A stretch of 48,157 nt of DNA, from NCBI GenBank assembly GCA_028282505.1, contig JANQHV010000058.1, forward strand, positions 1-48,157, read 5' to 3'. Both the position numbers and the translations under genes were made by a program. Each line of letters begins with the position of its first letter. The stretch's first letter is position 1. Below the pieces are notes generated by a model that worked only from the letters and a program-made list of their open reading frames with translations, had not been told where the DNA came from and searched no databases. This DNA comes from SAR324 cluster bacterium (GTDB lineage: Bacteria; SAR324; NAC60-12). Of the stretch, positions 5,424 through 37,600 are shown in pieces.

Positions 5424-8400
5424 TCACATCCATTTTTCAATTTTGTCTACGATTTCATCGACATCAATGGGTTTGGCAATATAATCATTGCAGCCCGCTT
5501 CTATGGTTTTCTCCCTGTCTCCTTTCATGGCACGGGCGGTTACGGCAATGACAGGGATCATTTGGGTTTGTTTGTGTTCTCTAATTTTTTGTACAACAGT
5601 GAAACCATCCATTTTGGGAAGTGCCATATCCAATAGAACCAGGTCTGGCAATTCAGATATTGTTTTTTCCAACCCCTCCAGACCATCGACTGCTTCTAGA
5701 ATTTCATATTTATCTTTTAGAATGGCTCTAATGAGCACCATGTTGTCTGGAGTGTCTTCGATCACTAAGATGATTGGTTTTTCTCTACTGGCTCTAGTAG
5801 CTATAGCGTCTTGGCTATTGGGGACAGGGTGAGAGGTTTCCTTTTCTGGAAGAGGGGATTCGGGAAAATTCTCAGCAATGGGAGCCAGCATATGCTGAAC
5901 CTTATGTAACAATCCATCCCGGTCCACATCTCCTTTTTGAATCAATTGCTGGATGTGATTGGAACTAAGTTTTGCCAGGTCTTCTTTTGTCAAATCTTTG
6001 GCTGTCAGAATGAGAACAGGAATTCCAGCAGTTGCCTCCATGCTGCGAATTTTTTCCAATACTGCAAACCCATCCACTTCCGGCATCATCAAATCGAGGA
6101 TAATGCCATCCGGAACAGTATGCTCTATGTAATCAATTGCTTCCTGACCACCACGAACGGCCTCTACTGAATATCCCACACCTTCCAATGTTCGTTTTAC
6201 CTGAGTGATGGCGATTTCATTGTCTTCAACGAGTAATAGGTGATGGCTTTCTTTTGTTTCAAGAGATCGAAGAGATTTGGATACTTTTTCAATTGTTGTT
6301 AATTGTTTTTCGATTTCTTGCAACAGAGATTTTGTATCGAGATTGCTTTTGCCCAGGATAGAAGAAGCATGGGTTTCCAGTTTGTTTTTTTCTTCTGTGG
6401 TCAAATCTTTGGCCGTGACTACAATCACTGGCAGATTTTTAGTGGACGGATCATTACGCAACCGGTCCAGTACCATGAACCCATCCATTTCCGGCATCAT
6501 CAAATCCAAGACAAGCACATCGGGAATTGATTGTTTCAGCAATTCCAGACATTTTCTACCGCTCTCTACAGAAATCACTTTCATTTTTTCTTCTTCAAGT
6601 ATTCTTGTCATTTCCAGTCGGTCAATTTTATTATCATCCACCACCATGATCGAATAAGGATGAGCCCCATCAATGGTTCGTATCTCTGAAATCAATATTT
6701 CTTTGTGGACAGGTTTGGTGAGGTAGCCGACAGCCCCTAAAGCAAATCCAGTTTCTTGATCATCAGCAACCGAAATAACAATAACAGGGATATTTGCTGT
6801 TTTTTTGTTCTTTTTTAAATTCTGTAAGGTTTCCCATCCATCCATTTCTGGCATGATCACGTCCAGGGTAATGGCAAATGGATGGTGAACTTCTGCCAGC
6901 TCCAATGCTTTTTGGCCAGATGTGGCGATAACCGTATGGTAGCCTTCTTCTGAAAGGTAATTAGAAATCATCGTCACTACCTGTGGATTGTCGTCCACAA
7001 TCAAAATCGTTTTTTTCTTGGATTGAGGTGTAGCCAAAGGAAAAGATAAGGGCTCATAAGTTGGTGCAATGCCTTGCCATTCAATAGGCAAAGTGATGAT
7101 AAATTTGCTTCCCTGTCCCAAGGTGCTTTGTACTGAGATGGTTCCACCGAGCATTTTTGCCGTTTTGTTGGCAATGGAGAGTCCTAACCCTGTTCCCTCA
7201 AAGCGACGGGAGGAGCTTCCATCCACTTGCCGGAACTCTTCAAAGATGTGAGGCACATCTTCTTTAGATATGCCAATACCCGTGTCCATCACCTGGATGA
7301 CAACGGCTTCTTTTTCTCGGAAAGCTTTAATATTGATACTGCCTTGCTCAGTGAATTTAACAGCATTGCCGATGATATTTTGCAGTATTTTATGTACCCT
7401 CAATTCATCACTTTCAATTTCAGGAAAATTATTCGCAATTTGTTGGGTGATGGTAATTCCTTTTTCTTTGGCAATCAGCTCCAGACTTTCTACAATCGTT
7501 TCGATGGTTGTTTCAGGTGAAAACCATCTGAGGGAAACATCCATGCGTCCTGCTTCTATTTTTGAAAGATCCAGGATGTCATTGATCAACGCAAGCAGTT
7601 GTTTGCCATTTCGCTCAATAATTTCCAGGTACTCTCCTTGTTCTGCAGAGAGATTATCTTGTGCCTGGAGGATCAAAACACGGGAAAGTGCCATGATGGA
7701 ATTGAGTGGAGTGCGGAGCTCGTGGCTCATATTGGACAAAAATTCACTCTTCAGTCGATTGGCTTCTTCCACTTGCTGACGTTGTGCTTCCAACTCAAGA
7801 TTTTGTTGCTGGAATTCTTCTGACTGGTTTTGCAGTTCAACGGCTTGGGCACGAAGTTCACCAGCTTGAGCTTCTAGTAAGACATTTTTATTTTGTAGCT
7901 CTTCAGCTAATTTCCTGGTGTTTTCGTTTGCCCAAAGGTTGGAAAAACTCGTATTGATTCCAATTGAAGCCTGGTTGACGATTTCCAGATGTTCCTTCGA
8001 ATAGCTATGGAAGCTGGCTAGAGTAATAATGGCCATGACCTCATCTCGGATGAGAATTGGTAGTGTGATCATTGCTGTCGGAGTTGCAGAACCAATAAAA
8101 GTTTTTAACTGAAAGACAGTGTCTTGAGGGATATTTTCGATGTGAGAAATTTGTTTGGATCTCAATGTTCTGCCTATTTCTCCTTCCATAGTGGCAGCAG
8201 CAAAGGGTTGCAGGAGATCACTATTTCCCCCAATTGAGGTAAAATGCTCAAATTGTTGTTGATCACCACTGAGCAAATAGAAAGCACCCAACTGAGAATC
8301 GGTAATTTCCATGATGTCTTTGAGCAGCTCCCTGCTAAAATCAGATACATCTTTTGCTGCGACCATCGTATCGTTGATCTCTGCCACTCCATGTTGAATT

Positions 8401-9554
8401 TTCATTTGGACTCGCATGGATTCTGCCATATTGTTGAAAGAATTTGCCAGGTAACCCAGTTCATCTCCTGTCTTTAAATCCACCTTTACTGTCAAGTCTC
8501 CTTGTGACATACGGTCTAAGGCCCGAACCAGAGTCTGAATGGGTTGTTTGATGGTCTGACTGATAAACGTACCAAATAAAAAGGCCAGCAAGAAGGCTGA
8601 CAGACTGGTAACCAGCATCCAGATACGTGTTTGTTCAAGGGCTTTTCCTAAATCGAGCAATCCTTTGTCCATGGTATCATGAATCAATTCTTCGGCATCG
8701 TCTGCTGTTTGGATGAAAGTAGAGAATTGCTCGTTAAATGTCTCCTCCAAATCTGACATCACTTTGTTGTAGTGCGTTGTGGTTTCATAACGCTCTTCCG
8801 CGACTTTGATGAATGCCACGATACGTTGACTCAAGTCTTCCACCTGATCTTTTCCGATGATAGGAGCCAGTGTTTCAAAAATGGCTTTAGCCGAGTTGAA
8901 ATCATCCAGAATGTCTTCCATCCTGTTGGACATATCACCAGAAAGCAGCTCCTCTAGAAAAAGATGGCCCTTTGTCAGCAAGAATTTGGTTTCTCCAATT
9001 TTGAACACAATCTCAGTCTCCTGGGCTTCATTCTTATATTGAGCACTGATTCTATCGAGGTTTTTCATGATGCTTCGATACAGCCCATCGAAATTTTGGT
9101 CAATGGCGCTGCCCGCACTGGAAGTTTGTTTGCTGGCCAAATAGCGTTTACGGCTTATCTGGAGAAACGACTCTATCTTTTGTTGGGTTTGTGTGATTTT
9201 TTCTCGAACATCCGGATCATTGCTGGCAATGAAACGGCCTTCATCATTTTCATCACCTCTCAGGATAGCGTTGCTATACCAGAGTGATTCCTGGAGTAAA
9301 TTCCATACTTTTTCCTCTTTGAAATCATCAGGATTTTTTATCAACTCATCTAGAGATACACGGGCCATCGCTGCTGTCAGCTTGATTTCCATAGCAGCGT
9401 CTCCTAATGGTGCCAACTCCATTCCAACAATTTCCCCTTTTTCCCCAATATAATTGGTGAGATAGGTGCCCATCATCCCTGTCATTCCTGCAATGACAGC
9501 AACCAACAGGAATGCCAGCATCAACCGGGTTCCAATTTTCATTTGTGTCTGCAT
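5424..9554 (-). CDS. MCP-sensor hybrid histidine kinase with four receivers
   Basis: 1376 residues using the ATG at 9554. An in-frame start at 9713 would overlap the cheR gene by over 130 bp, whereas the 9554 ATG has AGGGAAACAAC before it and begins 22 bp after cheR. Order: TM1 (about 8-30), extracytoplasmic helical bimodular sensor (about 35-305), TM2 (308-331), HAMP (332-384), GAF (405-540), a glutamine-rich coiled coil (540-600), HisKA with H611 in SNMSHELRTPLN, HATPase (about 720-840), then four receiver domains starting near 849, 962, 1104 and 1260. All four keep the phospho-Asp motif (DVIMPEMDG, DLMMPEMDG, DLMMPEVDG, DMALPKMDG). The N-terminal sensor is clearly paralogous to that of the MCP encoded four genes upstream. 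Probably membrane-bound and part of the same sensory pathway; the purpose of four serial receivers is unknown. Confidence 0.93.
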   Translation of the reverse strand: MQTQMKIGTRLMLAFLLVAVIAGMTGMMGTYLTNYIGEKGEIVGMELAPLGDAAMEIKLTAAMARVSLDELIKNPDDFKEEKVWNLLQESLWYSNAILRGDENDEGRFIASNDPDVREKITQTQQKIESFLQISRKRYLASKQTSSAGSAIDQNFDGLYRSIMKNLDRISAQYKNEAQETEIVFKIGETKFLLTKGHLFLEELLSGDMSNRMEDILDDFNSAKAIFETLAPIIGKDQVEDLSQRIVAFIKVAEERYETTTHYNKVMSDLEETFNEQFSTFIQTADDAEELIHDTMDKGLLDLGKALEQTRIWMLVTSLSAFLLAFLFGTFISQTIKQPIQTLVRALDRMSQGDLTVKVDLKTGDELGYLANSFNNMAESMRVQMKIQHGVAEINDTMVAAKDVSDFSRELLKDIMEITDSQLGAFYLLSGDQQQFEHFTSIGGNSDLLQPFAAATMEGEIGRTLRSKQISHIENIPQDTVFQLKTFIGSATPTAMITLPILIRDEVMAIITLASFHSYSKEHLEIVNQASIGINTSFSNLWANENTRKLAEELQNKNVLLEAQAGELRAQAVELQNQSEEFQQQNLELEAQRQQVEEANRLKSEFLSNMSHELRTPLNSIMALSRVLILQAQDNLSAEQGEYLEIIERNGKQLLALINDILDLSKIEAGRMDVSLRWFSPETTIETIVESLELIAKEKGITITQQIANNFPEIESDELRVHKILQNIIGNAVKFTEQGSINIKAFREKEAVVIQVMDTGIGISKEDVPHIFEEFRQVDGSSSRRFEGTGLGLSIANKTAKMLGGTISVQSTLGQGSKFIITLPIEWQGIAPTYEPLSFPLATPQSKKKTILIVDDNPQVVTMISNYLSEEGYHTVIATSGQKALELAEVHHPFAITLDVIMPEMDGWETLQNLKKNKKTANIPVIVISVADDQETGFALGAVGYLTKPVHKEILISEIRTIDGAHPYSIMVVDDNKIDRLEMTRILEEEKMKVISVESGRKCLELLKQSIPDVLVLDLMMPEMDGFMVLDRLRNDPSTKNLPVIVVTAKDLTTEEKNKLETHASSILGKSNLDTKSLLQEIEKQLTTIEKVSKSLRSLETKESHHLLLVEDNEIAITQVKRTLEGVGYSVEAVRGGQEAIDYIEHTVPDGIILDLMMPEVDGFAVLEKIRSMEATAGIPVLILTAKDLTKEDLAKLSSNHIQQLIQKGDVDRDGLLHKVQHMLAPIAENFPESPLPEKETSHPVPNSQDAIATRASREKPIILVIEDTPDNMVLIRAILKDKYEILEAVDGLEGLEKTISELPDLVLLDMALPKMDGFTVVQKIREHKQTQMIPVIAVTARAMKGDREKTIEAGCNDYIAKPIDVDEIVDKIEKWM

Positions 9555-9576
9555 GTTGTTTCCCTGAGTGGTTTTT

Positions 9577-10410
9577 TCATAGTTGCTGTTTCTGATAAAT
9601 ATGACAGCATTCATTAACCTTCTTAAAATATTTTTGATACTTGATTGGTGGTATTTCAAATTCTCCCAGCACCAAAAAACCGTTTTCTGCAAGTGAACGG
9701 TATAGTTTTTCAAACACGATATCTTGAGGTTCTTGTTCGAGATAAATCAAGACGTTGCGGCAAAGGACAATGTCAAAGTTGGCAAACACACTTTCTGGTG
9801 GAGCATAACTTTTTTTATCCAATAAATTAAAAAAAGAGAATGCCACCAGTTCTTTTATTTCGGGTTTTAGCTGGAAAGACATTTCATTCATCACAAAATG
9901 TTTTTTCAGCAGTCCATATTTGACATCTTCCACACTTTCTAAGGGATATTTTCCAGTTTGTGCTGCCTGGATGGCTTTTTGGTCAATGTCTGTTGCAAAG
10001 ATATCCAGATCTATTTTGTAATTTTGTTTTGCCATGAGTTCTTGCAAGAGGATTGCAATTGAGTATGCTTCTTCCCCATGAGAGCATCCTGCTGACCAAA
10101 TTCGTAAAGAAGAATTTTTCTGCTCCATTTTTTTCAAAAGGATTGCTGGCAAAATTTGATGATCAATGACTTCAAACGACCAGGTATTTCGAAAGAATCG
10201 ACTGACGTTGATGGTTAACGCATCCAGGAGTTCATGGGTTTCATCAGGATTTTTTTCCAGGAAATCCAGATATTCAGCATAACTTGCACTTTGTGTTTCT
10301 TCCAGTCTTTTACAGACTCGATTTTCCACAACAGAAAGACGATATCCAAAAAAGTTGAGATTTATTTTTTTTTCAAGAAATTGAAGAATCAATGGAAGTT
10401 GCTGTTTCAT
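9577..10410 (-). CDS. cheR: CheR-type protein-glutamate methyltransferase (copy 2)
   Basis: 277 residues. It has an N-terminal helical CheR domain (to about 80) and a C-terminal SAM-binding domain with IWSAGCSHGEEAYSIAI (motif I), the DIFATDID acidic loop, and FDIVLCRNVLIYLE. It transfers methyl groups from SAM to receptor glutamates for adaptation. Second of two adjacent cheR genes, only 8 bp after the other. It diverges strongly from its neighbour, so the pair is not a recent duplication; each may serve a different receptor (the MCP and the MCP-like kinase are the obvious candidates, by inference). No TPR extension is present. Confidence 0.92.
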   Translation of the reverse strand: MKQQLPLILQFLEKKINLNFFGYRLSVVENRVCKRLEETQSASYAEYLDFLEKNPDETHELLDALTINVSRFFRNTWSFEVIDHQILPAILLKKMEQKNSSLRIWSAGCSHGEEAYSIAILLQELMAKQNYKIDLDIFATDIDQKAIQAAQTGKYPLESVEDVKYGLLKKHFVMNEMSFQLKPEIKELVAFSFFNLLDKKSYAPPESVFANFDIVLCRNVLIYLEQEPQDIVFEKLYRSLAENGFLVLGEFEIPPIKYQKYFKKVNECCHIYQKQQL

Positions 10411-10418
10411 GTCTACTC

Positions 10419-11279
10419 TCAGATTTTCTTATAAACAATGGTAGCTCCATAACGTAAAGAGCTGAACTTGTCTGTCATGCCATAGATATTTTCTGAAGAA
10501 CCCAGCAGAAAAAAACCATCGTTGGCAAGCATTTGGTAGAATTGATCAAAGATCCGGGTTTTGGCATTATCATCAAAATAGATCAGCACATTGCGGCAGA
10601 AAATGACATCAAAACTACCTAAGGTATTGAAAGGATTGATTAAATTGATTTGCCGGAATTCCACCATGCTGCGAAGTGCATCCTGGATCACCCACTCATT
10701 CCCTTTTTTTTCAAAATATTTGTCTAGATATCCTGGTGGCAATCCACGTTTGATTTCCATTTCGTTATATTTTCCAGCCAGTGCTTTTGCCAAGGCTTCT
10801 GTAGATATATCAGTTGCCAGGATTCTGAAATCGTCTTGCGCAATGTCAAGATATGCATTAGCCCTTGCGTATTCATAAATGAGCATGGCCAGTGTGTAAG
10901 GTTCTTGACCCGTGGATGAGGCAGCTGACCAGACATTTACCTTTGCTCCTCTTCTTGCGGTATTTCGTTGTTTGCGTTCCCGAATCATTTTGCCCAGCAC
11001 GGGGAGAATGTGATCCCGAAATGCCTCAAATGGATGGATATCTCGAAAAAATGAGGTTTCGTTGGTAGTGATAGCATCAATCACCAATTCTTTGGTGTTG
11101 GGTGAAAAGCTTTTGGTAATTTTGTGATAATATTCAGCAAAACTTTTGCAGTTGGACGCTCGCACCAACGGTTCGAGACGTTGCTGAACCAGATACTGTT
11201 TATTATCCTGAATAGAAATGCCACAAATCTCATGAATGTAATTTCGCAACAGATTGAATTCTTCCTGGGATAGTTCCAT
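10419..11279 (-). CDS. cheR: CheR-type protein-glutamate methyltransferase (copy 1)
   Basis: 286 residues with the standard CheR layout. The N-terminal domain starts ELSQEEFNLLRNYIHEICG. The SAM domain has VWSAASSTGQEPYTLAM, ILATDIS and FDVIFCRNVLIYFD, and LLGSSE lies near the C-terminus. It methylates chemoreceptor glutamates and is the expected partner of CheB (50 bp upstream). Placed between cheB and the second cheR in the operon. This copy matches classical CheR proteins more closely than the next one and is the better candidate for serving the MCP. Confidence 0.93.
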   Translation of the reverse strand: MELSQEEFNLLRNYIHEICGISIQDNKQYLVQQRLEPLVRASNCKSFAEYYHKITKSFSPNTKELVIDAITTNETSFFRDIHPFEAFRDHILPVLGKMIRERKQRNTARRGAKVNVWSAASSTGQEPYTLAMLIYEYARANAYLDIAQDDFRILATDISTEALAKALAGKYNEMEIKRGLPPGYLDKYFEKKGNEWVIQDALRSMVEFRQINLINPFNTLGSFDVIFCRNVLIYFDDNAKTRIFDQFYQMLANDGFFLLGSSENIYGMTDKFSSLRYGATIVYKKI

Positions 11280-11328: not shown

Positions 11329-12417
11329 CTATTGTGTTTCACCATAAACAATTCTAGCCACCGCCTCTGGTATTTTTAACAATGGCAGGACAATGTCCAC
11401 GTGTCCCGATTCTATAGCACTGCCTGGCATCCCCCAGACAACACTGGAAGATTCATCCTGGGCAATGATCTCGGCACCTGCTCGCTTCAGAGTTCCAATG
11501 CCTTTTACTCCATCATCTCCCATTCCTGTAAGAATTATGGCAACTACGTTTCCTCCAAATACAGGAGCTGCTGAACGAAAGAGCACATCAACCGAAGGGC
11601 GACAGCCTTTTTCCGGAGGCTGTTGATTGGTAATGATGACTATTTTGTTTTCCTGCCTCCTAATCAGCATATGCCCCCCTCCAGGAGCAATATAGACATG
11701 ATGTGTTTGAACGGGAGTGGTCTCAGTGACTTCAATGACCGTATGAGAACATATCCGATCCAGACTGTTTGCCAGAGATTCTGTAAAAGTAGAAGGCATG
11801 TGTTGGACAATAAAAATGGGCAGATCTACTTTTTGACAGAGAACTGGCAAGATGGTAACAAGTGCCTTGGGTCCTCCAGTAGAAGTTCCGATTAAGATGG
11901 CTTGTATGTGTGTCGAACGAGGAGCACGAGAAATATTTAGAAATGGAGACTTAGAAACCACAAAACGGGATTTAGTCGCAGAATCGGGATGTTGGGAAGT
12001 AAACAGTCGGATTTTGGCTTTGAGCTTCCGGCTTAGTAAACCTAGACTGTTTTCCAGTTTTTCTGTTTCAGGTTTTGTAATAAAATCAAAAGCTCCAGCT
12101 TCCAGTGCTTCGATGGTAATCTCAGCACCTTGACGAGTGAAGGCGCTAAGCATGATGACACCAATTGGCGGTAAATCGTCGTGAGATTGATTGATGGCTT
12201 CAATGGCTTTCAGGGTTTCCAGTCCATTCATGTCTGGCATTTCGACATCCAGGGTAACCAGATCTGGGCGGGTGGACTGAATAAACTCCAGTGCTTTGAT
12301 CCCGTTTCGGACGGAGCCAATGACTTCGATATCTTCTTCATCTGCCAGACTTTCTTCAACAATACTGCGGAAGATCCGTGAATCATCGACGATCAGTACT
12401 TTTGTTTTGGAACTCAT
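11329..12417 (-). CDS. cheB: CheB receptor methylesterase/deamidase
   Basis: 362 residues. Receiver domain (1-125) with D57 in VTLDVEMPDMNG, a linker, then the catalytic domain with the Ser-His-Asp set: S179 in LIGTSTGGPKAL, H206 in FIVQHMPS and D302 in LTGMGDDG. It removes methyl groups from receptors when phosphorylated by CheA, the counterpart of CheR. It lies 15 bp after the MCP gene, inside the operon. All key residues are present, so it should be active. Confidence 0.95.
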   Translation of the reverse strand: MSSKTKVLIVDDSRIFRSIVEESLADEEDIEVIGSVRNGIKALEFIQSTRPDLVTLDVEMPDMNGLETLKAIEAINQSHDDLPPIGVIMLSAFTRQGAEITIEALEAGAFDFITKPETEKLENSLGLLSRKLKAKIRLFTSQHPDSATKSRFVVSKSPFLNISRAPRSTHIQAILIGTSTGGPKALVTILPVLCQKVDLPIFIVQHMPSTFTESLANSLDRICSHTVIEVTETTPVQTHHVYIAPGGGHMLIRRQENKIVIITNQQPPEKGCRPSVDVLFRSAAPVFGGNVVAIILTGMGDDGVKGIGTLKRAGAEIIAQDESSSVVWGMPGSAIESGHVDIVLPLLKIPEAVARIVYGETQ

Positions 12418-12432
12418 CGTTGTATCGTCGTT

Positions 12433-14631
12433 CTATGTGATCGACCTCTCCTCGTTGAAATTATTGGCCACCATTTCGTTAGCAGGATTGACCACCAACG
12501 CACTGGTCATCATTTCGTTTTCTACTTTGAATTTGCTGGTCAGTTCTTGGATTTCACTGGCAATTTTTGTCAATTCATCAGCAGAGAGGTTGACCTGTTG
12601 TGCTCCTGAGTTTGTTTCATCAGCTACCTTGTTCACTCCCTGAATATTTTGGGACACTTCGTCAGCGCCCTTAGCCGCTTCTCCTGCATTGTTGGACATA
12701 TCGTTGGAACCTTTGGCAACTTCAGCAATCGAAGAGGCAATATTGTTCACACCTGCATTGGATTGAGCAACATTGGAAGAGATGTCATTGGCCACGCTGG
12801 TTTGTTGTTCCACAGCATTGGTGATCACACCAACAGACTCATTGATGTTTTTGATGATCTCTGAAACCCGATCAATCACTTTGACTGCATTTTCTGTATT
12901 GGTTTGCACACCTTCAATACGATTGGTAATATCCTCTGCCGCCTGGGCACTTTGATTGGCCAACTCTTTAATTTCGTTGGCAACCACAGCAAACCCCTTA
13001 CCCGCATCTCCAGCAGAAGCAGCTTCGATGGTCGCATTGAGTGCCAGGAGATTGGTCTGTTCGGCAATACGCTTGATCACTTCAGTCACTTGACCAATAT
13101 CTTTGGCAGCAGTCCCCAACGTATTCATCATTTCAGTCGCATCCAGAGATAGGGTCATTGCCTGTTCTGAAATTTTTGAGCCATCCTGAGCATTTTTGGC
13201 AATGTTGTTGATGGCAGTGCTCATTTCTTCAATGGCAGCAGCGACAGCATTCATATTGGTTGACATTTGTTCGGCTGCTGAAGAAACACTACTGGCATTA
13301 ACACTCATTTCTTCGGCGGCTGCTGCCATGGTATTGATATTGGTTGACATCTCTTCAGTGGCGCTGGCGGCATTATTGTACTGCATTGTCATTTGCTCAG
13401 AACCTGAAGCCAGTTCTGCAGAAATAGTATTCAGTTTTGAAGATGAATTGGCCAATACCCCGGTGTTGTTCTTGATTTGAATGATCATATTGGCTAGGTT
13501 ATTGACCGTATGATTGAACAAGCGTGACATATTGCCCAACTCGTCCTGGGTGTTAATATCAGTTTTGACAGTCAGGTCTCCAGTGGATAATTTATTCAGG
13601 GCATCTACCATTGCTTCAATGGGGCGTTTGATGGTGCCACTGATGAACACACCAAGGATCACCGCAATGGCAAAGGAAAAAAAGATGGTGCCAAACATGT
13701 ATAACTGTGCCTGACTAATTCCATTTTTCAAATCAGCTATTCCTTTTCTCATATCATCATGAATCAATTCTTCTGCTTCATCTGCAATTCTGACAAAAGA
13801 TTCAAACTGGGTATCAAACATTTCATCGGCTTCACCTCCTGCAGAGGAAGTCTGTTGACTGACTTTGTATCTCTCCTGGGTGGTCGCGATAAAACCTTTT
13901 AGATTTTCGATCAAATCACTGACATTATTTTGACCAATCACACTCCCGATTTGATGGATGTTTGCCTGAGCTTTGTCAAAGCTGGATAAAATATCGACGA
14001 TTTTTGCTTCATCGTCGCCAGCAAGCAACTCTTCCAAAAATAAGTGACCATCAGCCAAGAGAAATCTAGATTCACCTGCTAATTGAATAATAGATAGATG
14101 ATTGGGTTGGTTATGTTTTTCAATAATTGCCGCTAATCCTTCTTGCAAATTCTCATACTGTTTATCAAAAGCTTGATCGACATCACTTCCTATTGTTACG
14201 GAATTGGAACGTTGATCATACCGTTGATGAGCACCGGCAATAAACCCCTCTACACTGACTCGGACTTCTCGAATCTTTTCGCGCACTTGTGGATTTTTTG
14301 TAGCAACAAAAATGCCTTCATCGTTTTGTCCTCCTTTGAGGATGGCATCACAATACCAGAGGGTTTCATCTAAAAGTTTCCATACCTGGTTTATATCTTC
14401 AGAAGTATCACCAGCGAGAATTTCCTCAAACAGGAGGTGAGCCGTTGTGGCGGTGAGCTTGATTTCCATGGCAGCATCCCCCAAAGGAGCCAGTTTTGCC
14501 CCCACATTTTCGCCGCGTTCACCAACATAACTGGAAAAATGCATGCCAATCATCCCTGTGATTGCTGTAATGACGGCGACCAAAAGAAATGTGCTGATCA
14601 ATCTTGGTCCAATTTTCATTCCTGTTCCCAT
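12433..14631 (-). CDS. Methyl-accepting chemotaxis protein
   Basis: 732 residues. TM1 near 8-31, extracytoplasmic helical domain about 33-305, TM2 about 308-330 (YMFGTIFFSFAIAVILGVFI) and HAMP (331-385). A long cytoplasmic helical hairpin follows, with the trimer-contact tip EQTNLLALNATIEAASAGDAGKGFAVVANE around 520-560. The sensor consists of two similar halves, each ending in an RY...QTSSAG...D..FD-like segment, i.e. a bimodular helical fold. The same sensor is found in the hybrid kinase downstream. No NWETF-type tail for CheR/CheB docking is present (ends EERSIT). Located between cheW and cheB; probably the dedicated receptor for this CheA. The ligand cannot be told from sequence. Confidence 0.95.
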   Translation of the reverse strand: MGTGMKIGPRLISTFLLVAVITAITGMIGMHFSSYVGERGENVGAKLAPLGDAAMEIKLTATTAHLLFEEILAGDTSEDINQVWKLLDETLWYCDAILKGGQNDEGIFVATKNPQVREKIREVRVSVEGFIAGAHQRYDQRSNSVTIGSDVDQAFDKQYENLQEGLAAIIEKHNQPNHLSIIQLAGESRFLLADGHLFLEELLAGDDEAKIVDILSSFDKAQANIHQIGSVIGQNNVSDLIENLKGFIATTQERYKVSQQTSSAGGEADEMFDTQFESFVRIADEAEELIHDDMRKGIADLKNGISQAQLYMFGTIFFSFAIAVILGVFISGTIKRPIEAMVDALNKLSTGDLTVKTDINTQDELGNMSRLFNHTVNNLANMIIQIKNNTGVLANSSSKLNTISAELASGSEQMTMQYNNAASATEEMSTNINTMAAAAEEMSVNASSVSSAAEQMSTNMNAVAAAIEEMSTAINNIAKNAQDGSKISEQAMTLSLDATEMMNTLGTAAKDIGQVTEVIKRIAEQTNLLALNATIEAASAGDAGKGFAVVANEIKELANQSAQAAEDITNRIEGVQTNTENAVKVIDRVSEIIKNINESVGVITNAVEQQTSVANDISSNVAQSNAGVNNIASSIAEVAKGSNDMSNNAGEAAKGADEVSQNIQGVNKVADETNSGAQQVNLSADELTKIASEIQELTSKFKVENEMMTSALVVNPANEMVANNFNEERSIT

Positions 14632-14646: not shown

Positions 14647-15111
14647 TTAAAGTACTTTCAAAAAATTTCTTGCTTGTAAAATGACAAGCAGGATTTCTTG
14701 CAATTGGCAAACTCCGATGATTAACTCTTGTTTACGTTTATCCTGTTCATTCAGATCTGCAGAAGTTGGTTCAGCGATCCGATAGTCTTCAATCAGATGT
14801 TCTTCGACTTCCTTGACATCATCGATCTGATCGACCAGGACGCCGAATGCTTGGCCTGCGGTAGGTTTGAACAGGATAATACGACTGGATCGGGTGATGG
14901 TTCCTTTTTCAAATCCAAGCAACAGGCGTAAATCCAGAACCAGGTGAATTTGTCCTCGAATGTTGACATACCCCCTTACCTCTTCAGGGGCATGAAAAAT
15001 AGGAGTTACGGCCACTTCTGGATTGATCTCTTTGACGTCTAGAATATTTACTCCAAACAAGCGTTCAGACAGCCAGAACGTGCAGAATTGATGCTTGTTA
15101 TTGGTTTCCAT
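14647..15111 (-). CDS. cheW: CheW coupling protein
   Basis: 154 residues, a single CheW domain: FCTFWLSERLFGVNILDVKEI at the start, then EEVRGYVNIRGQIHLVLDLR (the conserved NxRG turn) and FGVLVDQIDDVKEV. It links MCP signalling tips to CheA. Lies 18 bp after cheA and 15 bp before the MCP. The C-terminus (ELIIGVCQLQEILLVILQARNFLKVL) is slightly longer and more hydrophobic than usual; no reason is evident. Confidence 0.95.
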   Translation of the reverse strand: METNNKHQFCTFWLSERLFGVNILDVKEINPEVAVTPIFHAPEEVRGYVNIRGQIHLVLDLRLLLGFEKGTITRSSRIILFKPTAGQAFGVLVDQIDDVKEVEEHLIEDYRIAEPTSADLNEQDKRKQELIIGVCQLQEILLVILQARNFLKVL

Positions 15112-15129: not shown

Positions 15130-18100
15130 TTATGCTGCCATTTGAATTTGCATGAGTTCGGCAACTCTGACTAAGAGTTGTTCTCGTTCAATTTTGGTTT
15201 CGTGTCCATTGAATCCTGCTTCGTAGGTTCGCTCCTTATCGATTTCTGAATCAAGGGAAGTCAGGGCAAGAGACGGAATGGTTTGCAGGGCTTCTTCTGC
15301 ACGGACTGCTTTCATGAACGTCCAGCCGTTCATAATCGGCATTTCAATATCAGACACAATCAGATCAACGGTTGTGTCATGCAATACTTCCAAAGCACGT
15401 TTTCCATTTTCTGCAGTAAAAACTTCGTAGCCATCGGCCTCCAGATAGCCTTTCACCAATTGCTGGAAAAAAACCGTATCTTCTACCAAAAGGATTCGTT
15501 TTCTCTCTTGTGGAGAAGGTGCATTTTTTCTTCGTTCGATAAACCAATCGGGCTCTGCTTTTTCCACCAGACGATAGATATCAATGAACAACGTCATCTT
15601 GTCTTCGATTACCGCAGTTCCCATTAGGCCATCCTCCATGTAACTGTCGGTACTTAGGTTCACTTCTGTTTCCAGGACATCCACCACATTGGAAATGAGG
15701 ATGCCAACGGGATGTTTGATGTGTTTGGGAAGCAACAACAGGATGGTATCTTTTTCAGGACAGGGAGAAACGTTGAGGTGTTGTTCCATTTTGAGAATCC
15801 GAGTAGAAACACCATCAATGGTTACAAATTCTTTCTCACCAACCCGCTCTACCTGAGAAAGAGGAATTCGTTCGATGCGTCGGATCAGGGGCAGAGAAAT
15901 GGCAAATTGCTCTTGCGGTCCACTTTTAAATAAGAGGATCGATTGGGTTCTTTCTTTCAGAACAGCTTGCTCTTTTTCTTCCAATTCTGGTTCCGGTTCA
16001 GAGATTGTTTCTGCACAGGCGTGCTGTATCAGTCCTTCGATATCGAGAATCATGGCAACTTTGCCATCGCCCATCACAGTGGCGCCAGAATAGATTCTCA
16101 GTTTCTTCACGGCAGGATGCATGGGTTTAACAACGATTTCCTCCGTTCCTAACACGTTATCGACAATCAGGCCAAAACGTCTGGCCCCCACTTTGAGTAC
16201 CGAAAAAATAAGAGACTGTGCATTCTGTTCTTCCAGAATTTTCTTGGCCAATTGGCGATAATGACTGGTAATTTCAGCCAGTATATAATCGTTAAATGGT
16301 TCTGGTCGTTGAAGCACTTCATTCAGCCTGACCATAGGCAGTAAATGATCCCGCAGCCGATATACTTCCTGGTTGCCTGCACATTCGATACGATGAAAAA
16401 TATCCTCATCATAGAGGCGCACCAGTTCTACCAAATTGACCTGTGGAATGGCATAACGCAAGCCCAGGCTCTCAACGATAAGGCAGGGAATAATCGCCAA
16501 TGTGAGAGGGAGACTCAAACGAAGAGAAGTGCCTTCTCCAAAAGTGGATTCGAGATCAATGGTCCCACTAAGCTGCTCAATAGAAGTGCGGACAACGTCC
16601 ATTCCCACACCTCGTCCGGACACATCACTGATCTTTTCTGCGGTAGAAAAGCCAGGCAACATGATCAATGATAAGATTTCTTTGTCATTCATCTGAGCCA
16701 ACTCCGCTTCTGTTCTCATGCCATTTTGCAGGGCTTTCTTTTTGATGGCTTCCGGATCAATCCCTTTGCCGTCATCACGAATTTCAATATTGATGTGTCC
16801 TGCTTCATGAAATGCTCTGACCTGAATGGTTCCTTCTGGATTTTTTTCAGCCTCCATTCTTTGTTCTGGGCTCTCAATTCCGTGATCACAGCAGTTACGA
16901 ATCATATGCGTCAGTGGATCTGCCAATAATTCCAGGATTGTTTTGTCTAATTCTACTTCGGAACCAATGGTGGTGATTTCAATTTTTTTGTCGAGCTTCT
17001 TGGAAAGGTCTCGCACAATGCGCGGCAGTTTGCCAAATACATTGCCAATCGGTTGCATGCGAGTGCGCATCACACTTGCCTGAATTTCAGTAGTAACTAA
17101 ATCCAGGCGTTGGGAAATATCACGGGAAACCGGGTCCGATTTATCCACAGATAACAATTGTTGATTTCGCACCAACACCAGTTCTCCTGCCAATGTCATT
17201 AATTCATCAAGGATGTCCACTGAAATCCGAATCGTGTCGGTATGCTCATGACTTTTGGGCTCTATTCTGGTGGGTCTTTTAGGAGGAGGTGTCTTGTCGG
17301 CCTCTTTTGAAAGTTCTGCTTCTTCTTGTGTCGGTTGACTTGTTTTGGGTGGTTTTTGCTCGTTTTTGACTACATCGGATGCCGTTGCTTTTTGGAGATC
17401 TTCCTGATGGACTTCAATCACACCCTCTTCCGATAAGTTCACCGCTTTGCAAAGGAGTTCCTTTTCCATGATGGTCGAATACAGGGCATGATACAGTAGA
17501 GGCTTGTCCTCCAAAGTGTCGGAAAGATCATTGGCAGGAGAGTCTAATTTTCCATCAATAATCAAACCCATGCTCAAAAGATTGCGAATCAAAGTGCCTG
17601 GGGTTTCTCCATTGTTTTCAGCCAGTTTGGATAAGTCGAACTTTAGCACAAACAGATTGTTATGAGAGGCAGGCAGGTTGTTTAGTTCGAACTCGCTGAT
17701 TCGAAAACCAACCTTTTGGTTCTCATCATCCAGCATGGAAACATTGGTTTCCATTTCTTTCTTAATTTCAGAAGATGAAGTTTGGGCGATCAGATTGGAG
17801 AGACGATCATGGATTTCTTCAATGTCCATTTCATTGCTGTTTCCTGCGTCATCGAGCATGGTGGCCAATAGATCAACTCCGGAAAGAAGGGCATCGACAT
17901 ATTGGGCTTCCGGAGTGATTTCACCGTTTCGCATCATTTGGAGCATGGTTTCCATGGTATGTGCCAATTTATTGATTTTGACAAAACCAATAAATCCCGC
18001 AGCCCCTTTGATGGAGTGCATGGCACGAAACAGATGATCAATGACAGATGGCACCGGCACTCCTCCTTGTTTTTCCAATTCCAGGAGGTCTTTTTCGATG

Positions 18101-18162
18101 GTTTCTAGATGTTCTTTGGATTCAGCAACAAATTCGTCAACAATGGATGAATCAAAAGCCAT
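15130..18162 (-). CDS. cheA: CheA histidine kinase fused to a receiver domain
   Basis: 1010 residues. Hpt domain with H49 in LFRAMHSIKGAAGF. A 100-residue region (about 130-260) that may be P2-like or structural. A charged linker. Dimerisation (about 315-385). HATPase (about 430-570; ADPLTHMIRNCCDHGIE, DDGKGID, SGRGVGMDVV). A first CheW-like domain (about 575-740), a second CheW-like segment (about 755-875, CheW-like turns but no NIRG) and a C-terminal receiver (about 889-1010; DIEMPIMNG). In the receiver the usual K-P pair is replaced by TKIE. GGAGG sits 8 nt before the ATG. It phosphorylates CheB, its own receiver and probably the REC-PP2C protein at the head of the operon (inference); no separate CheY gene lies in the cluster. 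Confidence 0.94.
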   Translation of the reverse strand: MAFDSSIVDEFVAESKEHLETIEKDLLELEKQGGVPVPSVIDHLFRAMHSIKGAAGFIGFVKINKLAHTMETMLQMMRNGEITPEAQYVDALLSGVDLLATMLDDAGNSNEMDIEEIHDRLSNLIAQTSSSEIKKEMETNVSMLDDENQKVGFRISEFELNNLPASHNNLFVLKFDLSKLAENNGETPGTLIRNLLSMGLIIDGKLDSPANDLSDTLEDKPLLYHALYSTIMEKELLCKAVNLSEEGVIEVHQEDLQKATASDVVKNEQKPPKTSQPTQEEAELSKEADKTPPPKRPTRIEPKSHEHTDTIRISVDILDELMTLAGELVLVRNQQLLSVDKSDPVSRDISQRLDLVTTEIQASVMRTRMQPIGNVFGKLPRIVRDLSKKLDKKIEITTIGSEVELDKTILELLADPLTHMIRNCCDHGIESPEQRMEAEKNPEGTIQVRAFHEAGHINIEIRDDGKGIDPEAIKKKALQNGMRTEAELAQMNDKEILSLIMLPGFSTAEKISDVSGRGVGMDVVRTSIEQLSGTIDLESTFGEGTSLRLSLPLTLAIIPCLIVESLGLRYAIPQVNLVELVRLYDEDIFHRIECAGNQEVYRLRDHLLPMVRLNEVLQRPEPFNDYILAEITSHYRQLAKKILEEQNAQSLIFSVLKVGARRFGLIVDNVLGTEEIVVKPMHPAVKKLRIYSGATVMGDGKVAMILDIEGLIQHACAETISEPEPELEEKEQAVLKERTQSILLFKSGPQEQFAISLPLIRRIERIPLSQVERVGEKEFVTIDGVSTRILKMEQHLNVSPCPEKDTILLLLPKHIKHPVGILISNVVDVLETEVNLSTDSYMEDGLMGTAVIEDKMTLFIDIYRLVEKAEPDWFIERRKNAPSPQERKRILLVEDTVFFQQLVKGYLEADGYEVFTAENGKRALEVLHDTTVDLIVSDIEMPIMNGWTFMKAVRAEEALQTIPSLALTSLDSEIDKERTYEAGFNGHETKIEREQLLVRVAELMQIQMAA

Positions 18163-18185: not shown

Positions 18186-18923
18186 TTATGCCGTTGGAGA
18201 AATTCTGTATGTTTTATCCAATCCCGTCATGTGAAATAAGTTAACCAAGTCCGAATTAACATTAATAATTTCTAAATCAGGAGTATTGCTATCGTTTGAG
18301 AGCATTTTGGACAAGATGATGAAAACACTCAAACTGACCGAATCCATATCTTCCACTTGTTTCAAATCAAAACGATATCGAGCACTTCCCTGTTGGACAA
18401 GATCATGCAATAAAATCCTGAATTTATTGGCAACAGTTGCGGTGATATCCCCAGAAGGTGTGATGATTTGCCAGTTATTTTCCTCGTGAGTGACAAACTC
18501 GGTTTCTCTGCTCATACGGAGATAAACCGTAGTTTGATTGCCTTTTTCATTGAATAGGATTTTTTCGGTAAAGGATTTGATCAACGCGTAACCTCGATGA
18601 CGCACCTGGCGTGGATCTTCAGGAATGGCCATGTCCAGATTTTTGTAATCAAATCCATCTCCTTCATCTTCGACGGTTACTTTAAACAGCACATCTTCCA
18701 CTTGCTCGACAGCACAGTGGACGGTACGATCTGGGTTGTTCTGATTGCCATGTTCAATGGCATTAATCAACAGTTCTCTGATCACAATTTTGAATTCTGA
18801 GATGATTTTTAATTCGAGTTGTTCCAGAAATACATCCACCTCACCAATAATCCGGTCGACATTTCGCATTTTGGAAGAAATTTCAAATTGGATAGCGGAT
18901 GCTTCTTCTTTCACACTGAACAT
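18186..18923 (-). CDS. Anti-sigma-type ATPase fused to a STAS domain
   Basis: 245 residues. The N-terminal half (about 10-140) is a GHKL ATPase of the RsbW/SpoIIAB type, with ELLINAIEHGNQ (N-box), VEDEGDGFDY and HRGYALIKSF in the place of the G-box. The C-terminal half (about 150-245) looks like an anti-anti-sigma STAS domain, with MDSVSLSVFI where DSxGLxV is usual (Gly replaced by Ser). In partner-switching systems these two are normally separate proteins that bind each other; here they are one chain. It lies between the REC-PP2C phosphatase (15 bp upstream) and cheA (23 bp downstream), suggesting that the phosphatase dephosphorylates this STAS domain. Whether the kinase phosphorylates its own STAS or targets something else is open. 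GGGGGG precedes the ATG. Confidence 0.85.
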   Translation of the reverse strand: MFSVKEEASAIQFEISSKMRNVDRIIGEVDVFLEQLELKIISEFKIVIRELLINAIEHGNQNNPDRTVHCAVEQVEDVLFKVTVEDEGDGFDYKNLDMAIPEDPRQVRHRGYALIKSFTEKILFNEKGNQTTVYLRMSRETEFVTHEENNWQIITPSGDITATVANKFRILLHDLVQQGSARYRFDLKQVEDMDSVSLSVFIILSKMLSNDSNTPDLEIINVNSDLVNLFHMTGLDKTYRISPTA

Positions 18924-18938
18924 AACTGTCCCCCCCTG

Positions 18939-20207
18939 TTACAAGATGTGTTCTACATTTTCCATGACGGGTTTTGGGTGTATTTCTGGTTGCTCTGGGA
19001 TTTCCAGACCAACCAGCAGCATGTCGTCATGAGGTTTATACTCGCAAAAGTCCAGGATGTTCTCCCAGACTTGATCCACGGCATTTTCTAAAGATAATTC
19101 CTGATACTGTTCAAATAAACTTTTTAAGCCATCAGTATTCAATTTTTCTTTTCGTTTTGTTTGAACATTAAAGCGCTTTGCTGAAGAAATTCCATCGGTG
19201 TGGAGCAGGAAACGGTCTCCAGGAGCAATCGGGAAGGTACGGATATCGAATTCAGCTTTCTCAAAGAGCCCCAAAACGCTGCTGCTGACAGTAAATGTCT
19301 GGGCATGATTGGCCTTCTTTTGTAGAAAAATGGGAAAAGGATGGGCCGCTGAAATTAAATCGCCCTGCATTTTTTGTAGGTTGAGACGCAAAAAAAGAGC
19401 CGTCACCATGCGTTCATTCTCTCCTTTGTCCAGCAGTTGTTGATTGAGCAATTGGAAAAATTCCAGACCATCCTTGCCAGTACGGCAATTCTCGTCAAAG
19501 AATGCTTTAATGAGGATTGTATGATAAGACGCACCCATGTCGTGTCCTGCGACATCTGCAATCAAGATGTCACATCCGGTAGGCGTGTTTTGAATATCGA
19601 TAAAGTCGCCTCCCAGTTCGGCAAAAGGGTTATTCCTCCATACGGTTTTGACTTTATAGCCATGTTTTTTCAATTGGACTAATTCGCGGTAGACATTGAC
19701 TGCGGAATTGACCTGTTCTTTCAATTTGGAAAAGTTGTTTTGATAGCTTTCAATTTCTCGGTTCAACTCAGCCTGCTTTTCCTCCATTTGTCGAATGTTG
19801 TTTTCCCATTGTGCGTTGAACTCTTCCTGACGTGCTAAAACATTGGCCACACGCTTCAGTACCTCGTCCGGGGTTAAAGGCTTGTCCAAGTACTCACAGC
19901 ATCCTTTGCGCAGCAGCTCCAGTACCAGTTCTTTGTCTCCATAACCGGTGATGACAATCACTGGCAATAAAATGTTGCGAGACTGGAGAGCGTCGATCAA
20001 CTCTAAACCGGTCATGTGAGGCATTTGAATGTCGGTTAACAGGAGATCAAATGGCTCTGCCTCTTTTTCTTTTTGTAAAATCAGTTCAAGGGCTTCCTGG
20101 CCATTATTGACCATTGTCGCCTCATATCCCGCATCGGCAAGAATAAAGGAAAGGGACATGCGGAGATTGGGCTCATCATCGGCGATAAGAATTTTTTTGT
20201 ATTTCAT
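18939..20207 (-). CDS. Receiver-PP2C (SpoIIE/RsbU-type) phosphatase
   Basis: 422 residues, first gene of the operon. Receiver domain (1-120; DD at 10-11, phospho-site D59 in LTDIQMPHMTG, K109 in DKP), then a coiled coil (about 125-180). The C-terminal SpoIIE/RsbU-type serine phosphatase domain (about 185-405) keeps the metal-binding acids: GGDFID (199-201), IADVAGHDMG (D218, H222) and PHDDMLLVG near the end. Phosphorylation of the receiver, most likely by CheA, is expected to switch the phosphatase, which would act on a phospho-STAS protein such as the fusion encoded next. The whole layout is that of RsbU-like regulators; the CheA link is inferred from operon position. Confidence 0.93.
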   Translation of the reverse strand: MKYKKILIADDEPNLRMSLSFILADAGYEATMVNNGQEALELILQKEKEAEPFDLLLTDIQMPHMTGLELIDALQSRNILLPVIVITGYGDKELVLELLRKGCCEYLDKPLTPDEVLKRVANVLARQEEFNAQWENNIRQMEEKQAELNREIESYQNNFSKLKEQVNSAVNVYRELVQLKKHGYKVKTVWRNNPFAELGGDFIDIQNTPTGCDILIADVAGHDMGASYHTILIKAFFDENCRTGKDGLEFFQLLNQQLLDKGENERMVTALFLRLNLQKMQGDLISAAHPFPIFLQKKANHAQTFTVSSSVLGLFEKAEFDIRTFPIAPGDRFLLHTDGISSAKRFNVQTKRKEKLNTDGLKSLFEQYQELSLENAVDQVWENILDFCEYKPHDDMLLVGLEIPEQPEIHPKPVMENVEHIL

Positions 20208-34630: not shown

Positions 34631-37600
34631 TCATTCATTGGCATTGCCGTTGAAAGGATAATAAGCGACCAGGTCGGAACTGATGTCAAGACTGACCAGA
34701 GTGGTAGCAATCGTACTGTTGGTGTTGAGGGGATTGCCCTGCTCGTCAAAAATAGAATTGCTGACCGGAGTAATCGAAATAATTTCGACACCGGTTGGCA
34801 CACCCGTTACCGCAAGTTCGAACACAACGCTGGACTCTCCACCAACTAAAGCATCACTATTGGTGTTGGCCAGGCTGGCTATCGAAACTTCCAGGGCAGT
34901 GCCTCCATTTTGGTTAACCGCCAAGATAAAATCGTTGGTAGCGAGTCCACCTGAACCATCATTATTGGTATAAACCCCTTCATTGAAACTGAGTGTGAAC
35001 GTATCACTGCTATCCGAAGTCACTGTATTGGCCAGGACAAAGGGAGGTGAATCCTCAATCAAATCTTCTATTTCAAGTTCTGTCAGAGCACGGTTATAGA
35101 CGCGGATGTCGTCTAAAAGACCGTTAAAGTAGTTGTTGGGATTATTAAAATTTGCTCGCCCAATATAATTAATGGAATTGCTGCAACTGGAGGCGGAGCC
35201 TGAGCCGAGCAATTTTCCATCTATGTAGAGAGCAACCTGATTTTGATCTGCTGTGACTGCAAAATGATGCCAGGTTCCTTGATCATTGCCAACCTCAGAA
35301 GAAATTGCTAGAAGAGTACTCTCGCACCAAATAACTTTCCAATCATTGTTGTAGTTGCCTCGACCGACCTGGACTTTTCCGTCATTGTATCCAAACAAAG
35401 TCATGTCATTGGCCCACCCTCCGTGGCTTCCACTGATCTTATACCATGTGGCCATAGTGGTGCTATTCACTGTAATGGTACTGGCAATCAAGAAATGATC
35501 ATCCACTCCGTCAAAACTATAGGCATTGTTGCTATGTCCAAAGCGATCTGTGGTAAGAGTGGCCCCTCCAGTGGCTATTCCATCATATCCATTGCCACTG
35601 ACATCGTTGGCACTGCCACTGAATGGGTAGTAGGCCACCAGCCCAAGATCTTTGGTACCGGTTGCAAATAATTCCTCGATTTGCCACTCTTCCAGGGCGG
35701 TATTGTAAATACGGACATCATCAATGTCTCCTTGAAAGCTTTGTGCCGTAATGCCAAGGGTTCTTCCAATCACCAAGGGTAGACCTGTAGTTGTATTAAA
35801 ACTAACTGATGTGTTAGCAACTTCAACACCATTTGCATAAACTGTCATCGTTCCCCCAGCGGACAAAGTCAGCGCCAGATGGGTCCATACATGAGAGTTA
35901 ATTGTGTGGGAGAAGCTATACTGGCTAGTTCCATGCCATACTTCAATAGACGAATAATCTCCACTGATGTGCCAACTGTAACGTGTCTGCGAAGCATTCC
36001 GTACTCCAAAAATAGTGGGATCATCGCCACCATCAGTGGTCCAGGTAGGCCGTACCCATGCCATCAATGTACCTTCAGTCAAATCGAACTGGCCACCACT
36101 GTTGGAGACCTCAATGTAATCATCATTACCATCAAAAGTATAACCATTCTTGAAGGCTCCGGCCCAATTGGTAGTGGCTAAGGTGGGAGCCGTGCTGCTC
36201 GATGCGATGGTACCGTGATTGGAATTGCTGCTGACATTATTGATATGGCCATCAAAAGGATAGAAAGCCACCAGACTGCTGCTTTCAATATCGGTATAGA
36301 CCGTGACCACATCCCTGGCTTTCAAATTGCCATCCGTGGTTGCCAGTTCAAATTTGTAGGCTCCAATCTCCACTGGCTCAAACGTAAAGGAGGAAGAACT
36401 TGGAGTGAAATCGATAAAGTTGTCACCCGATGGATGTTCCAGCAACGTCCAGGAATATGCCAGATTCGTATTGCCATTGGCACTTTGACTATCGTTTGCC
36501 GTGATGGTGAAATTGCTGGTATTAATATCTACCACCTGATCCTCTCCAGCCACCGCAACCGGAGCCCTGAAAAGATTGAGAACTTCTACTGTGCTCAAAG
36601 CACGGTCGTAGATGCGCACATCATCAATGTCTCCGTCGAAAAAATCGCTAATATTTCCATTAGTCAAAGAGGCACCAATGAGGATTGGTGTGTTGTCCGA
36701 AGCCAAGTGAGAACCAGATGCCATGCTATTTTCCAGATTGCCATTGATATAAACCCGCATTGTGGCGCCATCGTAAGTGGCCACCAGATGGCTGTAACTG
36801 TCCTCTGGAATGGCACTTGTGGAATCAATGGTAAAAGATGATACTTCCCGATGGAAAGTAACCGTGCGATTTGTATTCAATCTGAGAAAATAGGAACCCT
36901 GAATATTGGCATTGTATTTCGACACGATCATCCCTTGACCTCCACCTGCATTCGGTTGAACCCAGGCTGCTAAAGTGAATGACTGGGTACCGGCAAAAGA
37001 ATAATCAGTCGTCCCTAAATCAATGTAATCATCCGTACCATCAAAACTATAGGCACCACTGGCCGTACCGAAATGATCCTCTGCCAAAGTTGCTCCAATT
37101 GGTAAACCATGCAGATCGGTGCTACTGACATCTTTGACATCTCCATGAAACGGATAATAAGCAATCAGACCACTTTCGATGCCCTGACCATAGGACCAGA
37201 CATCGTTGTAGGTAGAACTATCAGAACGATCTTTTCCTCCTAAAAACCAGAGTTTGCTCCTGAACACAGTGAGCATATGAGATTCACGGTCCGTCCATCC
37301 TGCTTGGCCAGTGACCTCCAGCCAATTGATTCCATCACTGCTGTTCCAGACATCCCGGAGGCTGGTGTTGCCTGATGTGCCACCGCCAGTCAACCACATT
37401 TTTCCGTCATAGACTGCGACGCGAGCCACTGTACGTCCTGACCAATCAGGATTAGTGGTGGCTTGCATCCAATTCATACCATCCTGGGAATACCAGACAT
37501 CATTGAGGAAGCTGCCATCATAGCCTCCCATCACCCAGAGTTTATTGTCAAACACCACCGTCTGATGACCATTTCTCACTCCCCAAGAAGCATTTGCAGT

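Follow-up and report, generated by a model that had tools for sequence, protein, structure and literature searches.

A kinase-STAS fusion protein encoded beside cheA in a SAR324 cluster bacterium: a candidate serine switch reset by a receiver-PP2C phosphatase

A 48,157-nucleotide contig of a SAR324 cluster bacterium (assembly GCA_028282505.1, JANQHV010000058.1; the whole of this stretch is hereafter called the window) encodes, between the genes for a receiver-PP2C (REC-PP2C) phosphatase and a CheA-type kinase, a single polypeptide that joins an RsbW/SpoIIAB-like kinase domain to a STAS domain. We propose, with a probability of roughly 60%, that this kinase-STAS (KIN-STAS) fusion functions as a CheA-governed, autophosphorylating switch that would be reset by the REC-PP2C protein. 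The sequence bears out the two domains, the integrity of the catalytic residues, the acceptor, and the phosphatase receiver, and a gene order that is conserved, and the system is a variant of the kind represented by Rv1364c and HsbR-HsbA, with the layout REC-PP2C followed by kinase-STAS and attached to a CheA operon. One gene run would thereby link chemoreceptor/CheA His-Asp signaling with partner switching on Ser.

Domain architecture of the fusion protein

The gene is on the minus strand, as are all window features given below, and occupies positions 18,186 to 18,923, running from an ATG at 18,923 as a single uninterrupted frame without an internal stop or frameshift and encoding 245 aa (stop codon included in the coordinates). 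Residues 1 to 137 (18,513 to 18,923) form the RsbW/SpoIIAB-like kinase domain, supported by Foldseek and VIA-align and matched by Pfam HATPase_c_2 (PF13581; residues 18 to 135; E = 2e-14; 54.1 bits against a gathering cutoff of 27.4), whereas residues 147 to 244 (18,192 to 18,485) constitute the STAS domain (PF01740; E = 1.1e-9; 38.4 bits against a cutoff of 22.6). By the Pfam limits, the linker spans about residues 138 to 146 (18,486 to 18,512), and no other Pfam domain is found in the chain. The domain search thus bears out the initial annotation, which had proposed an RsbW-like ATPase and an RsbV-like domain in one chain. Searches against the sequences of the PDB recovered SpoIIAB for the N-terminal half (PDB code 1th8; E = 1.6e-8) and RsbV for the C-terminal half (6m36; E = 8.9e-6), and a STAS-family profile recovered RsbV and SpoIIAA with E values of 4e-11 to 9e-8. 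The equivalog models of NCBIfam, namely, TIGR01925 for SpoIIAB (37.2 of 135 bits) and NF003144 and TIGR01924 for RsbW (25.4 of 145 and 23.2 of 155 bits), scored under their cutoffs, and we therefore file the protein as neither; the score with the anti-sigma factor antagonist superfamily model (TIGR00377; 42.9 of 53.45 bits) was likewise under the cutoff.

Structural comparisons with Foldseek and VIA-align matched the N-terminal half to SpoIIAB, RsbW, UsfX, and the kinase of Rv1364c, the structure of the last (3ke6) being among the best matches (Z = 13.5; rmsd, 2.4; 113 aligned). The full-chain AF2 model (mean pLDDT, 60; low in the STAS half) was built from an alignment of two rows only, i.e., the window protein and a HATPase-only relative (L031; here and below, genomes and loci are designated G and L, respectively). 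The VIA-align matches listed covered almost only residues 1 to 140, and the STAS half was therefore folded and searched alone. Its AF2 model is weak (mean pLDDT, 47), and all 18 of the best Foldseek matches in the PDB were anti-sigma-antagonist or STAS chains (best E = 1.1e-3); the STAS fold on which the initial annotation had made its reading depend is thus present in the C-terminal half.

Motifs of the kinase and the acceptor site

The kinase domain contains an N-box, ELLINAIEHGN (residues 50 to 60; 18,744 to 18,776), with E50 at the catalytic-base position, N54, and H58, and a DEGDGF (DxGxG) motif (residues 86 to 91; 18,651 to 18,668). The ATP lid, located by alignment to SpoIIAB and by a family alignment, reads R108-H-R-G111-Y-A-L114 (18,582 to 18,602). 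E50, N54, H58, D86, G88, G90, and G111 are invariant in all 13 fusions inspected, and the lid residue R108 is kept in 11 of them. HRGYAL had been described as replacing the usual G-box; alignment to SpoIIAB with HMMER shows this to be true of the first Gly of GMGF, which is His (H109), but not of the second Gly (G111) or of the lid Arg (R108), both of which are kept. Moreover, an RG[YFL] lid is common to the free-standing kinases of L003 (G046) and L004 (G051), and a close form, NIGF, is present in L031.

The predicted acceptor of the STAS domain is S195 in the motif D194-S195-V-S197-L198 (18,330 to 18,344); by comparison with Ser58 of SpoIIAA and Ser56 of RsbV, we take the acceptor to be the residue directly after the Asp. 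Ser does replace the Gly of DSxGL, as had been observed; however, relatives with the acceptor Ser retained vary at this position, two residues past the acceptor, having S, A, T, or G. Since the variants at both the Gly position and the lid are seen in relatives or in free-standing kinases, neither change shows a loss of function, and their use as a sign of an altered switch does not hold. Two acidic residues are described as docking SpoIIAA, RsbV, and SypA onto their kinases, and we used the contacts given in PMC10120452 for comparison. At the position of the second contact, the window protein has T161; Thr or Ser occupies it in 12 of the 13 inspected fusions, and the G033 fusion has Ala there. 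The docking is therefore not fully canonical.

Gene neighborhood

Immediately upstream, the first gene of the cassette (18,939 to 20,207) encodes the REC-PP2C phosphatase (Pfam SpoIIE, E = 2.5e-32; Response_reg, E = 3.9e-26), in whose receiver the D, D, D, T, and K residues are all intact. Downstream on the same strand lie genes recognized with Pfam as encoding a CheA-type kinase with Hpt, dimerization, and HATPase domains, two CheW stretches, and a C-terminal REC domain (15,130 to 18,162), a CheW protein (14,647 to 15,111), and a HAMP-MCP chemoreceptor (12,433 to 14,631). These are followed by genes for a CheB-like protein with REC and methylesterase domains (11,329 to 12,417) and a CheR-like methyltransferase (10,419 to 11,279), which were recognized from their translations and themselves served as the CheB and CheR probes (the CheB match is hence a self-match), and for a second CheR-like methyltransferase (9,577 to 10,410; phmmer E = 1e-31 to the first). 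The intergenic gaps are below 50 bases as far as the first CheR gene. The locus thus combines the components of a partner-switching module, i.e., the catalytic residues of the kinase, the acceptor Ser of the STAS domain, and an adjacent SpoIIE phosphatase gene.

Elsewhere in the window, we observed a HAMP-GAF-HisKA-HATPase protein that carries four receivers and follows just after the second CheR gene (5,424 to 9,713), a repeat-containing protein of 3,068 aa whose N terminus appears lipoprotein-like by eye (34,631 to 43,837), and an AAA_16-TPR-GAF-SpoIIE protein of 1,361 aa that runs to the window edge (44,071 to 48,156). The genome as a whole (G000; 7.57 Mb) has about 50 SpoIIE phosphatase and 53 HATPase_c_2 matches (E ≤ 0.001), a very large partner-switching repertoire.

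Distribution of the fusion in related genomes

Dozens of related genomes encode such a fusion, and the joining of kinase and STAS is not unique to the window; the premise of the initial annotation that the two are normally separate proteins overlooks these relatives as well as Rv1364c of Mycobacterium tuberculosis. A full-length fusion is present in 3 of the 52 genomes of the window's class (the window's own, G036, and G033) and in 3 of the 24 genomes of the phylum of G255 (G401 to G403); in that phylum, four further genomes encode a REC-STAS protein (G255, G400, G388, and G385) and one encodes a separate REC and STAS pair (G397). Around G074, both domains were covered at 40 places in 37 of 297 genomes, with one in-frame stop at two of the places. 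Our reading of this group took in the 30 places that have loci (L120 to L149), leaving aside L170 (G699) and about ten further places without a locus. In all 30 translations, a single frame contains the kinase and STAS, and the acceptor motif reads D-S; a PP2C gene lies within the 1.5-kb flank in 26, and one for an Hpt protein lies within the flank in 29. In G074, the gene directly after the fusion encodes an Hpt protein that itself carries a STAS_2 domain (L061:8201-9319). One member of the group, G407, has a single 644-aa open frame with REC, PP2C, kinase, and STAS (L145:262-2193), possibly a case of all four in one chain.

Wider stretches from G681, G647, G440, G471, G493, and G431 show CheA as the third gene. 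The order REC-PP2C, kinase-STAS, CheA, and CheW is found in G036, G401, G402, G403, G681, and G647 in addition to the window, with an MCP gene next where the contig continues. In the regions examined of G440, G471, G493, and G431, we found no PP2C gene adjoining the CheA-linked fusion; these genomes have five or six SpoIIE matches elsewhere. The REC-PP2C protein of G036 (L032:4404-5648) has a degenerate receiver, with V, G, G, G, and S at the D, D, D, T, and K positions. The open-licence literature that we searched yielded no report of a kinase-STAS fusion beside CheA.

This distribution also decides the question of an artifact, i.e., of adjacent genes joined by a sequencing or assembly error. 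Kinase and STAS are adjacent separate genes in some relatives (L053, L054, and L056), which would speak for such an error; yet the fused frame recurs with the same neighbors in independent genomes, so no stop codon has been lost, and we consider an artifact ruled out, with next to no chance of being real.

The acceptor Ser across CheA-linked STAS domains

Among the CheA-linked STAS domains, we found a pattern, new here, in which loss of the acceptor appears to track loss or decay of the kinase; we regard it as suggestive, not as proof. The acceptor Ser is present in all 11 CheA-linked fusions with an intact lid, namely, those of the window, G036, G401 to G403, G681, G647 (with a run of N inside its STAS domain), G440, G471, G493, and G431. 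In the G033 fusion, both the acceptor (S to G) and the lid Arg (R to T) are lost. The contig of this fusion has no Pfam SpoIIE match, the single one of the genome being on another contig; a weak PP2C match in L033 (E = 3e-5), to a frame of 104 aa on the opposite strand some 5.5 kb upstream, was accordingly taken as chance. Of the kinase-less relatives, the four REC-STAS proteins have V, P, V, and P at the acceptor position, and the separate pair of G397 has A. Three of the four REC-STAS genes, as well as the STAS gene of G397, lie directly before CheA, and the fourth, that of G385, adjoins an MCP gene, with no CheA in the 14.5 kb examined. The contigs of G255 and G388 end at most 0.8 kb upstream of REC-STAS, where the absence of PP2C is thus not proven.

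A strict rule by which Ser occurs only with a linked kinase fails. Six genomes of the class (G048, G051, G047, G045, G043, and G046) have a stand-alone STAS gene directly before CheA, with no kinase or PP2C gene next to it in the stretch examined, and five of the six keep D-S; a linked kinase alone therefore does not explain retention of the Ser. Directly upstream of such a stand-alone STAS and CheA pair, L112 (9657-11321) and L113 (10046-11764) encode HEAT-repeat proteins with a C-terminal receiver.

On a STAS tree of 33 rows, which took in 10 of the 30 fused loci L120 to L149, just three gains or losses suffice to account for the acceptor states, so that independent events are few, and the deep support of the tree is weak; within it, the REC-STAS proteins group with the CheA-linked fusions (94/94). 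In the CheA tree, the window CheA groups with those of G681 and G647 (85/67) and, by path, lies close to those encoded in the REC-STAS operons. As to a possible descent of the REC-STAS receivers from the cassette REC-PP2C receiver, a REC tree of 46 rows, built from receivers with at least 75 residues matched and without the two hybrid kinases of the window, sets the two on one side and among the closest rows by path, without support.

Proposed mechanism and alternative readings

On the reading that we prefer, the ATP-bound RsbW-like domain would phosphorylate S195 of the tethered STAS, either within one chain or between the chains of a dimer, and the upstream-encoded REC-PP2C protein would take the phosphate off again. 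The likely controller is CheA, whose gene belongs to this run; it may act by phosphorylating the receiver of the REC-PP2C protein; the receiver of the G036 phosphatase is without the Asp, Thr, and Lys positions, and this step is therefore not general. The phosphorylation state of the STAS domain would then decide what it binds, a presumed downstream partner for which, by analogy, the candidates are CheA itself, as with CheS, or a sigma-type protein, as with HsbR/HsbA. We infer phosphorylation in cis rather than in trans. The intramolecular switch envisaged by the initial annotation stands in that the fusion is real and that an intramolecular or intra-dimer pair is the best reading of it, but the two motif changes from which it was argued do not carry it.

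The same two changes, a His at the first Gly of the lid and a Ser at the Gly of DSxGL, are what speaks for regarding the HATPase domain as a dead or scaffold kinase, with the STAS domain phosphorylated by another kinase or never. We think this improbable, and we rejected a loss of kinase activity as the meaning of HRGYAL: the lid Arg and every other catalytic position are intact as well as conserved, the lid variant occurs throughout the family, in fused relatives and free-standing kinases alike, and the sole CheA-linked fusion without the lid Arg has also lost the acceptor Ser, which is what working kinases in the others would predict. A less remote alternative, if still an unlikely one, is classical partner switching, in which the HATPase domain would additionally hold back a sigma factor or another protein, with release once the STAS domain lacks its phosphate, the fusion doing no more than fix the stoichiometry. 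SpoIIAB/SpoIIAA and HsbR/HsbA are precedents, the latter being a known receiver-driven case, described as governing RpoS and FliA (PMC6482189); furthermore, SpoIIAB and RsbW are nearest to the N-terminal half in sequence and fold, and R24, which aligns with R20 of SpoIIAB, is Arg in 8 of the 13 fusions inspected. However, no sigma factor gene was recognized by eye among the translations of the window, a tethered STAS would be a permanent competitor of any partner, and adjacency to CheA persists without the kinase (G255, G400, G388, and G397), which points to a Che-related role of the STAS domain.

That role might be a direct one, the STAS domain acting on CheA as CheS of the alphaproteobacteria does, while the kinase joined to it, or the receiver in relatives, would only tune the binding; the whole would then be a feedback module of the array. 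We hold this to be slightly less probable still than classical switching. In its favor, a STAS domain just before CheA recurs with four head types (KIN-STAS, REC-STAS, the separate REC and STAS pair, and STAS alone), and CheS of Sinorhizobium meliloti is reported to bind CheA and to affect phosphoryl transfer to CheY1. Adjacency is nevertheless not binding, the REC-STAS gene of G385 lies next to an MCP gene with no CheA found nearby, and in the G074 group it is the Hpt(-STAS) protein and not CheA that comes after the fusion. A more speculative extension, which we put forward as doubtful, is that the constant element is a STAS domain acting on the CheA array, whereas its controller is interchangeable: either a fused kinase opposed by REC-PP2C, acting on Ser, or a fused receiver, acting on Asp. 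REC-STAS might then have arisen by loss of the PP2C and kinase domains between the REC and STAS domains of an ancestral gene pair, after which the useless acceptor Ser would have decayed. If true, nature would have exchanged one phospho-chemistry for another while the output domain stayed the same.

Whichever partner the preferred kinase-STAS switch has, the natural variants, with the fused kinase intact, decayed, replaced by a receiver, or missing so that STAS stands alone, probe the effect of tethering a kinase to its own substrate. The intact KIN-STAS proteins and their REC-STAS relatives are small, probably soluble proteins on which phosphorylation in cis and the binding of STAS to CheA could be tested directly.

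Comparison with known systems

The window protein shares with SpoIIAB/SpoIIAA and RsbW/RsbV of Bacillus the two folds, the catalytic Glu, Asn, and DxGxG, the lid Arg, and the position of the acceptor Ser; it differs in carrying both domains in one chain and in scoring far under the equivalog cutoffs. Rv1364c, described as a PAS-PP2C-kinase-STAS chain whose own STAS Ser600 is reportedly phosphorylated and dephosphorylated by its own domains, is similar in that the kinase is joined directly to a STAS domain that PP2C dephosphorylates. In contrast to Rv1364c, the window chain has only HATPase_c_2 and STAS and neither PAS nor PP2C, its phosphatase is the product of a separate REC-PP2C gene, and its input is CheA linked instead of PAS based.

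HsbR (REC-PP2C-kinase) and HsbA (STAS) of Pseudomonas aeruginosa, as described in PMC6482189, and CrsR/CrsA of Shewanella have, like the window, REC, PP2C, kinase, and STAS in total, and their receiver is reported to be under phosphorelay control. The split differs, being REC-PP2C-kinase and STAS in these systems and REC-PP2C and kinase-STAS in the window, where the controller gene is that of an Hpt-containing CheA beside the cassette. In SypE/SypA of Vibrio fischeri (PMC10120452), a kinase, a REC domain, and a PP2C domain are likewise described as acting on a STAS protein, but SypA is free, whereas the STAS domain of the window is tethered and has Thr (T161) at the second acidic contact. As in the window, a che cluster encodes the STAS domain of CheS of S. 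meliloti and Agrobacterium; a review gives CheS as a single STAS domain that reportedly binds CheA, whereas that of the window is fused to a kinase. Finally, a campylobacterial survey records STAS genes paired with stas_STYK genes as well as STAS genes located in che clusters.
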